Source: an uncultured Alphaproteobacteria bacterium (GTDB taxonomy: Bacteria; Pseudomonadota; Alphaproteobacteria; UBA11222). Taken from it: 64,000 nucleotides of DNA. The notes under the pieces were generated by a model that was given only the letters and a program-made list of their open reading frames with translations, made no database searches and was not told the origin of the DNA. Below are positions 34,081-36,858 of the stretch, one piece after another. Where the stretch lies: NCBI GenBank assembly GCA_947258435.1, contig CAMYID010000003.1, positions 1 through 64,000 on the forward strand, in the 5' to 3' direction. Made by a program: the position numbers and the translations under genes. The stretch's first letter is position 1, and every line of letters starts with the position of its first letter.

Positions 34081-34088
34081 GAAAATTC
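34081..34088. repeat. Left copy of 8-bp target site duplication GAAAATTC
   Basis: Directly abuts the left TIR; identical octamer directly follows the right TIR at 36851-36858. Confidence 0.85.
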
Positions 34089-34181
34089 GGTAGTGTCTCA
34101 GTTTGAAAATAATGGGGATTGACGGGCTATCGAATCCGGCCATCGTTTCCTATATGCTTAGGGGTAAGCATAGGAGACAAG

Positions 34182-34367
34182 ATGACAATCGAAGAGCGCG
34201 TTGAACGGCTAAAACGGTGCGTGAAAGAGCAAGAAGCGCAGCGCCAGTGGCTTCTGGACGTCAATTGGGAAGATAGCGGTGGAGACGCAGCCAAGGCTGC
34301 GATGGAGCATGATCGCATCATTGAAATGTACGGCGAGCTAATTCGCAAGCTTGAGGCGCGCCTGTAA
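34182..34367 (+). CDS. Small hypothetical cargo protein (61 aa, charged helical)
   Basis: MTIEERVERLKRCVKEQEAQRQWLLDVNWEDSGGDAAKAAMEHDRIIEMYGELIRKLEARL; preceded by 'aggagac' SD-like sequence; overlaps the next ORF's start. Confidence 0.7.
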   Translation: MTIEERVERLKRCVKEQEAQRQWLLDVNWEDSGGDAAKAAMEHDRIIEMYGELIRKLEARL

Positions 34368-34600
34368 TGCCCACCGGACCTAAAGGACAGAAGCGCCCCG
34401 CTGACGTGATCGGCAACGCCATTAAGGTGGCCAGAATCGCGACCGGCGAGACCGAAGATACCGTCAAGGATGATGGCAAAGACCCAGCCGCCAAGGCGCT
34501 TGGCGCTAAGGGCGGGAAGGCGCGCGCTGCCAAGCTGACGCCAGAACAGCGCGCGGAGATTGCGCGGAAGGCGGCTGAGAAGCGATGGAAAAAGGACTAG
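34367..34600 (+). CDS. Small basic hypothetical cargo protein (77 aa)
   Basis: '...AKALGAKGGKARAAKLTPEQRAEIARKAAEKRWKKD', a pattern common in accessory-genome small proteins; translationally coupled to 34182-34367. Confidence 0.7.
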   Translation: MPTGPKGQKRPADVIGNAIKVARIATGETEDTVKDDGKDPAAKALGAKGGKARAAKLTPEQRAEIARKAAEKRWKKD

Positions 34601-35412
34601 GACAGTATCGCTTTATATGCCGCTATTTTCTGTTCCAGTTTCTCCAACCCCTCTAGGTCCATAACAGCATTGATCCGCACTTTTCCTCCGGCGAACTCGA
34701 CGCGAATATCGTTCAGTTCCGCATCTTCGGCAGGTGGCGGTGACGGAACGTCGCGTGGCTTTGCCGGGGGTTCTTGGTGAACATGGTTCATATCATCGCC
34801 GTCTTCGGGCTCGTGGAGGTTGCTGGTATCTTCATGCTCAGCATCATCCAAAGATACATCAGGCGATTCTAGCAGTCCAGCAAAACCTACCGTCTGCCGG
34901 TATTCAGTCACCAACTCCTCTGCCGCCTTGTCGCTGTACGTTGCAGCGCCGCTGTCGGCTCGATCTAGCGTGAGGTAACTCTTAAGGGCCAGGTCCATTC
35001 CGCCAGACGCGCCTGGGAGGCCATATTTTTCCCATAATTCTGCATGGATTTTCGGGGCAAGTGCTGCTGCGCGAACGGCAGCTTTTCGCTTTTCAGAATT
35101 CGGGTCAGGATCGCGGATTAGGCGTATCGCGCTATCGGTCAGCTTGAACCGACGCTTGTCGCCACTCCCATCGTCCTGAAGTAGCCCAAATTGCTTTAAT
35201 GCGGCAATTGTTGCGAACAAGCCGCTGCTTTTTTCCCCGTATTCCCACGCCTTCGCTGCAACGCCCACCGGTACGGGATGGTGAAGGGCCTTTTCGTGTA
35301 GCGACACCGCTCGTTCTATCGCCTTATTTAAGGGAATTGCCGGATAAGGCGGGCTGCGAAAACGTGGTTGCTTTTCGTCATTAGTGTCACTGGTTGCGGT
35401 GTGGTCCGTCAT
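34597..35412 (-). CDS. Hypothetical cargo protein with possible winged-helix-like N-terminus
   Basis: 271 aa from MTDHTATSD; GGAGG SD upstream; N-terminal 'GVAAKAWEYGEKSSGLFATIAALKQFGLLQDDGSGDKRRFKLTDSAIRLI' resembles a wHTH; acidic/proline-rich linker; short C-terminal beta-beta-alpha-like module. Confidence 0.75.
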   Translation of the reverse strand: MTDHTATSDTNDEKQPRFRSPPYPAIPLNKAIERAVSLHEKALHHPVPVGVAAKAWEYGEKSSGLFATIAALKQFGLLQDDGSGDKRRFKLTDSAIRLIRDPDPNSEKRKAAVRAAALAPKIHAELWEKYGLPGASGGMDLALKSYLTLDRADSGAATYSDKAAEELVTEYRQTVGFAGLLESPDVSLDDAEHEDTSNLHEPEDGDDMNHVHQEPPAKPRDVPSPPPAEDAELNDIRVEFAGGKVRINAVMDLEGLEKLEQKIAAYKAILS

Positions 35413-35432
35413 ATCTGCCTCCATGTGAAGGC

Positions 35433-35461
35433 AATATAGGCCGCTACCTCGTATCTGTCAA
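35433..35461 (-). promoter_or_regulatory. Sigma70-type promoter for the minus-strand cargo gene, with operator-like motif in the spacer
   Basis: Minus strand TTGACA (35461-35456), 17-bp spacer, TATATT (35438-35433); spacer contains ACGAGGTAGC. Confidence 0.7.
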
Positions 35462-35510
35462 TCAAAAGGAAGGTAAGTTTTGTCTCCAATATATCTCTTG
35501 ACGAGGTAGC
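35443..35510. repeat. Inverted 10-bp repeat GCTACCTCGT / ACGAGGTAGC (48-bp gap), candidate operator pair
   Basis: 35443-35452 GCTACCTCGT and 35501-35510 ACGAGGTAGC are exact reverse complements. Confidence 0.7.
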
Positions 35511-35526
35511 TGTGCGGAGGTAGTGT
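35498..35526 (+). promoter_or_regulatory. Possible plus-strand promoter driving tRNA-like/transposase unit
   Basis: TTGACG (35498-35503), 17-bp spacer, TAGTGT (35521-35526); weak -10. Confidence 0.35.
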
Positions 35527-35549
35527 CTCGAATCAGAAAGGAGAAGCCC

Positions 35550-35612
35550 ATGGCTAGGAGGGCTCCGGGCCCCGGCATTACGCCGACCGTTGATCGGGGC
35601 CTGTGCAAATAG
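35550..35612 (+). CDS. Candidate 20-aa mini-ORF MARRAPGPGITPTVDRGLCK in the leader of the transposase unit
   Basis: ATG...TAG with upstream 'aaaggagaagccc' SD-like sequence; coding status unproven. Confidence 0.3.
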   Translation: MARRAPGPGITPTVDRGLCK

Positions 35613-35696
35613 AGAAGCCGTTGCGAGGTTCCTGGCGGGATACGCAACGGCTTTCAGGTTGGCAGGCGGCCAGCCGAAAGGCTGGCCGCTCCCAAA

Positions 35697-35769
35697 GCGC
35701 CCGTAGCTCAGCGGATAGAGCATTCCTTTCGTAGGGGACCGGTCGCAGGTTCGAATCCTGCCGGGCGCT
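35697..35769 (+). tRNA. tRNA-like gene, anticodon CGT (Thr by decoding); no CCA directly encoded after the discriminator
   Basis: GCGCCCG/CGGGCGC acceptor (7/7), GCTC/GAGC D-stem, anticodon loop TTCGTAG, T-arm GCAGG-TTCGAAT-CCTGC, 5-nt variable loop; anticodon stem has one T-C mismatch; discriminator T followed by CACCA. Confidence 0.75.
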
Positions 35770-35780
35770 CACCACTTCAC

Positions 35781-35816
35781 TACGGCTGCCACTTCCATAA
35801 CATAGTGGCAGCCGTA
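35781..35816. repeat. 13-bp perfect inverted repeat/hairpin between tRNA-like gene and transposase
   Basis: TACGGCTGCCACT (35781-35793) / AGTGGCAGCCGTA (35804-35816); no T-tract follows. Confidence 0.8.
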
Positions 35817-35883
35817 TGTGAATCCTACATTAAAGTTGATTCATATGCTTGACACTAAGCATAAAAGTTCACATATATCGGGT

Positions 35884-36828
35884 ATGGCAAACGTCCTACC
35901 CACTCCGAAGCGCGTTCAAATCCTCCATATGCTTTGTGAAGGTTCGTCCATGCGTTCCATCGCACGGATCACCGGGGTTTCCATCAACACGGTTTCGAAG
36001 CTGCTTGTGGACGCGGGCGAAGCCTGCGCGGCTTATCACGATGAGCATGTGCGCGGCCTGTCATGCGAACGCATCCAGTGCGATGAAATCTGGTCGTTCA
36101 CCTACGCCAAGGCAAAGAACGTTGATACCGCAAAGAAGGCCCCGACATTCGCGGGCGATGTTTGGACCTGGACCAGCATTTGCGCGGACAGCAAACTGAT
36201 CTGCAATTGGTTTGTCGGCGGGCGTGATGCGGAGTTCGCCAACATCTTCATGGACGATCTGGCCGACCGGCTGGACCATCGCGTTCAGCTTACGACCGAT
36301 GGCCACAAGGTCTATCTCGATGCCGTGGCCGGTGCGTTCGGAAACGATATCGACTATGCGCAACTTGTGAAGCTGTTCGGTGCCGCACCGGATGCCGTCA
36401 AAGGCCGCTACAGCCCTGCCAAGTGCACCGGGATCAAGAAACACGAGCGGAATGGTTCGCCCGACCCAGACCATATCAGCACGTCTTATGTGGAACGCAT
36501 GAACCTTTCGATCCGCATGGGGCTTCGCCGGTTCACGCGCCTGACCAATGCGTTCTCAAAGAAATTCGAGAACCATTGCCACGCGCTGGCGCTGTATTTC
36601 GTCTGGTACAATTTCTGTCGCCAGCACAAGAGCCTTGGCGGCATCTCACCGGCAATGGCTGCTGGCGTCAGCGATACGCTTCGTGATCTGGAATGGATTG
36701 TCGGCCTGATTGATGAGCGCGCGCCAAAGCCGGGACCGCGCGGGCCTTACAAAAAACGCAAAAATGAAATGCTTACTGATCAGGAATTGGAGTCACTTCG
36801 TCATGAAATGAGCGAGTCGCAAAAATGA
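35884..36828 (+). CDS. IS1-family-like DDE transposase
   Basis: N-terminal HTH 'ILHMLCEGSSMRSIARITGVSINTVSKLL'; 'QCDEIWSFTYAKAKN', 'LTTDGHKVYLDAV' (TDG as in IS1), 'SYVERMNLSIRMGLRRFTRLTNAFSKKFENH'. Start could extend to GTG at 35818. Confidence 0.85.
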   Translation: MANVLPTPKRVQILHMLCEGSSMRSIARITGVSINTVSKLLVDAGEACAAYHDEHVRGLSCERIQCDEIWSFTYAKAKNVDTAKKAPTFAGDVWTWTSICADSKLICNWFVGGRDAEFANIFMDDLADRLDHRVQLTTDGHKVYLDAVAGAFGNDIDYAQLVKLFGAAPDAVKGRYSPAKCTGIKKHERNGSPDPDHISTSYVERMNLSIRMGLRRFTRLTNAFSKKFENHCHALALYFVWYNFCRQHKSLGGISPAMAAGVSDTLRDLEWIVGLIDERAPKPGPRGPYKKRKNEMLTDQELESLRHEMSESQK

Positions 36829-36850
36829 AAATTCAAACTGAGACACTACC

Positions 36851-36858
36851 GAAAATTC
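36851..36858. repeat. Right copy of 8-bp target site duplication GAAAATTC
   Basis: Identical to 34081-34088, directly after the right TIR. Confidence 0.85.

Follow-up and report, generated by a model that had tools for sequence, protein, structure and literature searches.

Divergent promoters in an IS1-like transposon appear to control a winged-HTH gene and a pseudoknotted rare-codon RNA, a candidate toxin-repressor module

What is controlled by two promoters that point away from each other inside a mobile element and carry the same 10-bp motif in inverted orientation? The question is raised by positions 35433-35526 of an alphaproteobacterial contig, of which 64,000 nucleotides were analysed (the window). 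The initial annotation had proposed that a single regulator, possibly the adjacent cargo protein itself, acts there on both the cargo gene and a transposase/tRNA unit. The features of the region are as follows.

34597-35412, minus strand: cargo gene encoding a 271-aa winged-HTH protein, a candidate autorepressor
35433-35461, minus strand: cargo promoter, TTGACA-17-TATATT, the best sigma70-like site in the 64-kb window
35443-35452, minus strand: inverted arm 1, ACGAGGTAGC, within the spacer of the cargo promoter
35498-35526, plus strand: structured-RNA promoter, TTGACG-17-TAGTGT, identified by positional conservation (15 of 19 loci)
35501-35510, plus strand: inverted arm 2, ACGAGGTAGC, overlapping the -35 of the structured-RNA promoter
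35519-35529, plus strand: internal copy of the transposon end, GGTAGTGTCTC, covering the -10 of the structured-RNA promoter

The two 10-mers are exact inverted copies and lie where the initial annotation had placed them, arm 1 inside the minus-promoter spacer. No third exact copy occurs within the 64 kb, and dinucleotide shuffling of the 138-bp interval that holds both arms gave a 10-bp inverted pair in 0 of 400 trials. The description of the minus promoter as near-consensus also held, as this is the sole site on both strands of the window with 6/6 and at least 5/6 matches. The plus promoter is weak by sequence in isolation: there are about 75 sites of its grade per strand of the 64-kb window, and shuffling the sequence around it yields an equally good score in 63% of cases. 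It is nevertheless supported by its position, since a TTGAC-type box lies 33-46 nt upstream of the structured-RNA start in 15 of 19 homologous loci; the view that it is a chance-level match was withdrawn for this reason. The 11-bp end copy over its -10 is unusual among related elements, and it is conceivable that the transposase acts on the structured-RNA promoter there.

The element that carries this region is a 2.76-kb IS1-like transposon (34089-36850) with 19-bp inverted ends and 8-bp target duplications, and a genome of the same genus (G001) has the uninterrupted, empty insertion site. Its parts outside the control region are listed here.

34081-34088, repeated at 36851-36858: left 8-bp target duplication, GAAAATTC, recognised by sequence and by the empty site in G001
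34089-34107, plus strand: left terminal inverted repeat, GGTAGTGTCTCAGTTTGAA
34182-34367, plus strand: s1, a small variable ORF (61 aa)
34367-34600, plus strand: s2 (77 aa), found in nearly all relatives
35884-36828, plus strand: IS1-like single-ORF transposase (314 aa)
36832-36850, minus strand: right terminal inverted repeat

The transposase scores 58.3 bits against the IS1 profile NF033558, below the cut-off of 100, and is thus related yet divergent. Membership in IS1595 was considered and rejected (NF033547, 12.7 bits against a cut-off of 75). Among 80 relatives examined, nearly all follow a common plan: the same two ends enclose s2 at the left, then a single slot whose passenger varies, and finally the transposase. 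Many of their passengers are RosmerTA antitoxin/toxin genes or belong to other toxin-antitoxin or defence-like families; RosmerTA is the commonest, with about 21 of 104 passenger ORFs. The C-terminal KGG..RRxEIAxKAA..RW motif of s2 also matches the antisense-strand passenger region in L008, L015, L026, L043 and L075.

In the window, the passenger is the cargo gene with its divergent partner. The cargo N-terminus had been described as wHTH-like, and structure prediction (AlphaFold2) bears this out: a winged HTH with helices at 28-42, 49-55 and 63-74 and strands at 78-81 and 88-91 is modelled confidently (pLDDT ~84-94 over that part). Among the closest solved folds found by Foldseek are ArsR/SmtB-type repressors and BigR, with deviations of 2.4-2.8 A over 70-75 columns from the ArsR/SmtB-like folds and no E-value at or below 0.001. 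The protein has no match in PADLOC and falls into no Pfam or NCBIfam family above cut-off, and searches of plasmids, phages and viral contigs gave almost no matches. We assembled a cargo family of 36 loci from family searches, transposon-relative loci and the viral contig L188, some of them fragments of metagenome assemblies; duplicate loci (L141 = L070, L142 = L085, L191 = L190) were counted once each.

What lies across the interval from the cargo gene became clear from these loci. An initial alignment of nine cargo-tRNA leaders gave two covarying hairpins, and the covariance model R2 then picked up the RNA, again pointing away from the cargo gene, in another 11 cargo loci; most of these have no tRNA, and all had been left out of model building. 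The divergent cargo/structured-RNA layout is found in 18 of the 36 loci. The features on the right-hand side are these.

35535-35673, plus strand: structured RNA (model R2), defined by covariation
35550-35612, plus strand: mini-ORF MARRAPGPGITPTVDRGLCK, with SD AAAGGAG and tandem AGG AGG as codons 3-4 (35556-35561)
35568-35574/35595-35601, plus strand: helix P1 of the structured RNA
35615-35625/35643-35653, plus strand: helix P2
35582-35588/35657-35663, plus strand: pseudoknot P3
35697-35770, plus strand: tRNA called tRNA-Thr(CGT), with an Arg-like body and an atypical anticodon arm

The E-values of R2, which like those of R1 are rough owing to a short calibration, included 1e-16 for L180, 1e-13 for L197, 9e-12 for L145, 1.5e-11 for L192, 1.8e-11 for L073 and 5e-11 for L202; among the weaker loci were L195 (5e-6), L204 (2e-5) and L196 (1e-4). 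In 308 alphaproteobacterial genomes, R2 matched only the window, the genome of L085, L208 and a weak partial site. The L208 match (G193:C3:2668-2806, 3e-10) has no recognised cargo gene nearby. Within the cargo family, R2 showed no such RNA in about half of the loci.

The fold was assessed on 30 aligned matches, of which 21 were full-length and the others covered P2 alone, read from the opposite strand. Changes on both sides occur in every helix, a signal that is lost when the partners are slid; pairing in P2 reaches 98.6%, and each of its 11 pairs shows both-side changes. The whole structure scores 0.366, compared with 0.142 when shuffled and at most 0.078 when slid. For P3, which joins the P1 loop to the segment after P2, a locus's own partners score 6.2 against 5.0 for swapped ones (0 of 2000 permutations). 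Comparison of loci shows a conserved structured RNA. It has no match in Rfam 15 at E<=1; the window as a whole gives only the tRNA and a sub-threshold antisense match, and among the relatives the tRNA alone reaches cut-off, other matches being sub-threshold (e.g. sX4, 25.8-34.9 bits against 70).

Most of the loci with a tRNA share an anatomy of a leftward promoter, a rightward TTGAC-type promoter, an SD, a mini-ORF with tandem AGA/AGG codons, two hairpins and the tRNA. The initial annotation had the plus promoter serve the tRNA unit; the tRNA does stand at the end, but the structured RNA and the rare-codon mini-ORF, which had been missed, come first. In the window, the mini-ORF begins AAAGGAG..ATG GCT AGG AGG, and AGA and AGG together make up 49 of the 1010 arginine codons (4.9%) in the long ORFs. 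Tandem AGA/AGG codons occur within the first five codons in 17 loci, which are related to one another, so that multiplying their probabilities gives no valid significance. Because AGA and AGG forms both occur, an AGGAGG ribosome-binding site alone does not account for the feature, and the comparison shows conservation of the rare codons as such. The tandem pair is missing in four RNA-bearing loci (L085, L177, L190 and L202). As the R2 columns include the rare codons, the loci newly found with the model are supportive of the codon feature and not a fully independent test of it. Structure and coding are moreover entangled, since the mini-ORF spans P1 and in many loci extends into P2. Scanning of the RNA-less cargo loci gave no frame of the type SD-AUG-AGR-AGR, except in L143, where it coincides with a weak R2 match. 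An arrangement that is possibly a cousin of the module was seen at L022:1000-1290, where a DUF5343 passenger is accompanied by the short frame ATG AGG AGG GAT TAA and by a tRNA with a Gly body whose anticodon arm is damaged.

On this comparative evidence, the winged-HTH gene and the structured RNA make up a two-gene module, which has its control region in the divergent promoter pair. Inverted repeats of at least 8 bp are present in 9 of the 19 divergent cargo-RNA intervals, compared with 1.5 expected (P ~5e-6). Their sequences vary from locus to locus, and inspection of cargo promoters in related loci did not recover the exact 10-mer, whose conservation had been named as a check. Such differing dyads would fit co-divergence of each repressor with its own operator. 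Inverted repeats of 9 bp or more are also present upstream of 4 of 20 unrelated passengers. The suggestion of an autorepressor is supported: the winged HTH, the recurring divergent layout and the dyad enrichment in the shared interval speak for it. The specific 10-mer is not conserved. From these three points there are good grounds to infer that the cargo protein is a predicted autorepressor which would act on both divergent promoters.

The reading that we prefer, and regard as an even bet, is that the module pairs this autorepressor with a CreT-like RNA that traps a rare tRNA, carried as a transposon passenger. The leftward promoter would yield the winged-HTH protein, and the rightward promoter a small RNA with a pseudoknot, which opens with a strong ribosome-binding site, an AUG and two rare arginine codons in a row and in the window continues into an atypical tRNA. 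Most likely, dyads in the interval (in the window, the two inverted 10-mers) are bound by the protein, which represses both promoters. If repression failed, ribosomes would initiate on the mini-ORF and pause at AGG AGG ahead of the P1/P3 pseudoknot; the scarce arginine tRNA would be trapped or dropped and growth would slow, much as toxic minigenes and CreT RNA toxins act. As for the 3'-terminal tRNA, it may fix the end of the RNA via RNase P, or may contribute misreading. A toxin-repressor pair looks at home in its passenger setting, given that the cargo of this transposon family is mostly toxin-antitoxin or defence-like. Against this reading stand the operator sequence, which differs between loci, the repeats upstream of unrelated passengers, the cargo-family loci in which no such RNA is seen, the few RNA-bearing loci that lack the tandem pair, and the CRISPR control by which CreT is defined.

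Under a different explanation, which we consider unlikely, the tRNA is itself the effector, mistranslating (Ser at UAA, Leu at Arg or Trp codons) and either harmful or stress-adaptive; it would be silenced by the wHTH protein, and the leader RNA would only help its expression. A tRNA accompanies the module in 10 of the 36 cargo loci (the window, L010, L042, L070, L085, L144, L147, L177, L188 and L198), although that of L188 is truncated and that of L198 lies past the cargo gene and shares its strand. Most of these tRNAs mix body and anticodon, and the repeated alteration of the anticodon is what such an explanation would predict. A Ser body with UUA is found in L010, L042, L070, L085 and the viral contigs L188-L191; Leu bodies beside cargo-family genes carry the Arg anticodon GCG (L147:5348-5448) or the Trp anticodon CCA (L198:1368-1454). 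Neither the seryl- nor the leucyl-tRNA synthetases depend on the anticodon.

The tRNA-Ser(UUA) genes, of ochre-suppressor type and borne on transposons or viral contigs, are located at L010:3655-3744, L042:3826-3925, L070:3804-3901, L085:408-495, L189:220-310 and L190:9080-9192. Exact matches to the UUA pattern among 385 alphaproteobacterial genomes are confined to two such transposons, which likewise suits a tRNA effector, and mistranslating tRNA-ProX genes that are toxic in E. coli provide a precedent (PMC10365949). Element-wide recoding of UAA by these suppressor-type tRNAs was rejected, as UAA serves as the stop codon of the very cargo genes that these elements carry. The occurrence of a tRNA in only 10 of the 36 cargo loci, compared with 18 for the RNA, argues against the tRNA as effector, as do the damaged-looking anticodon arms in the window, L022, L144 and L177. 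The window tRNA is closest to tRNA-Arg (84%) and has no CCA at the usual place. Its CGU anticodon, along with the pairs G1-C72 and C2-G71, would be equally compatible with ordinary charging by threonine, a further point against the tRNA as effector. The host has an ordinary tRNA-Thr(CGT) elsewhere.

It is also rather improbable that the RNA is an attenuator, in which the mini-ORF would be a leader peptide and the position of the ribosome at the tandem arginine codons would set P1, P2 and the pseudoknot, and hence the output or release of the tRNA. The tRNA does follow the RNA directly and in the same orientation in the window, L010, L042, L070, L085, L144, L177, L189 and L190, and P1 starts about one ribosome footprint past the tandem codons. 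However, most loci have no U-tract at P2, which therefore does not qualify as a plain terminator, and the RNA has no tRNA downstream in L073, L145, L180, L192, L195, L196, L197 and L202. A search for a tRNA remnant in L073, L143, L145 and L146 gave none.

The proposal of the initial annotation, one inverted 10-mer operator that coordinates cargo, tRNA and transposase, draws on the exact inverted 10-mers on both promoters, but is very improbable in view of how the transposase is organised. It has its own conserved promoter immediately upstream (35844-35872), and it shares a different dyad with the s1-s2 operon.

34153-34172: dyad TATGCTT-N6-AAGCATA, candidate element operator copy 1, upstream of s1
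35844-35863: dyad TATGCTT-N6-AAGCATA, candidate element operator copy 2, overlapping the transposase -35

This dyad, which differs from the 10-mer motif, was found at the left operon in 52 and before the transposase in 48 of the 68 relatives scored, compared with 2 of 340 control windows. Judging by this distribution, it is the element's own operator, common to the s1-s2 operon and the transposase. A possible binder is s2, which occurs almost throughout the relatives; its predicted structure has three helices (pTM 0.36). Of the single regulator, the cargo/RNA side stands, on account of the dyad excess and the shared layout; control of the transposase from the 10-mer site is unsupported because of the separate promoter and the different dyad. 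That the inverted 10-mers are a relic of duplicated promoter DNA and play no part in regulation would agree with the absence of ACGAGGTAGC from other cargo promoters, but is scarcely credible beside the conserved divergent layout and the dyad excess over 19 loci.

With the repressor and the tRNA-trapping RNA as the preferred reading, the module can be compared with known systems. We found no earlier description of it in the literature searched, the coverage of which is partial, and the recurring winged-HTH/pseudoknotted-RNA module is apparently undescribed; the RNA is not in Rfam, and none of the libraries searched holds a curated name for the protein family. The carrier resembles IS1-family passenger transposons in its IS1-like transposase (58 bits), 8-bp duplication and 19-bp inverted ends, but differs in falling below the NCBIfam IS1 cut-off (100 bits) and in its extra conserved s2, variable passenger slot and two-site operator. 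The RosmerTA toxin-antitoxin/phage-defence systems (RmrT/RmrA; PMC10440598) occupy the same passenger slot of related elements; unlike these, the window cargo has neither a PADLOC match nor a Pfam/NCBIfam family above cut-off.

With the ProRSx/tRNA-ProX pair of Streptomyces, the module has in common a dedicated gene pair and a tRNA that combines the body for one amino acid with the anticodon for another. Its partner protein, however, is a winged-HTH protein instead of a synthetase, the bodies are of Ser, Leu and Arg types, and the tRNA sits behind a structured mini-ORF RNA. Anticodon-altered tRNAs that pipelines label by anticodon as tRNA-Thr, tRNA-Trp or tRNA-Stop can belong to mobile modules.

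The closest likeness on the RNA side is to CreTA. For its action, CreT depends on an SD and a good start codon that is directly followed by two AGA codons in a row, and on a stable stem-loop (PMC8501985). The window RNA has an SD, an AUG and tandem rare codons just past the start, and downstream of the mini-ORF start it has a stable stem-loop, with P1, P2 and the pseudoknot covarying. CreT is, however, defined by CRISPR control, and no CRISPR, CreA or Cas was noticed among the ORFs of the element; a divergent winged-HTH gene stands where CreTA has its regulator. The module RNA also differs in its conserved fold of two hairpins and a pseudoknot, often followed by an altered tRNA, and in its occurrence in alphaproteobacteria and transposons. 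That it represents a new mobile class of toxin-repressor system, with a pseudoknotted rare-codon ribosome trap and an anticodon-swapped tRNA on one transcript silenced by a winged-HTH protein, is a tentative and still doubtful proposal. If true, rare-codon tRNA trapping would be a toxin strategy that extends well beyond CRISPR and is spread by transposons, and a trapping toxin would be governed by an ordinary DNA-binding protein and coupled with altered tRNAs.
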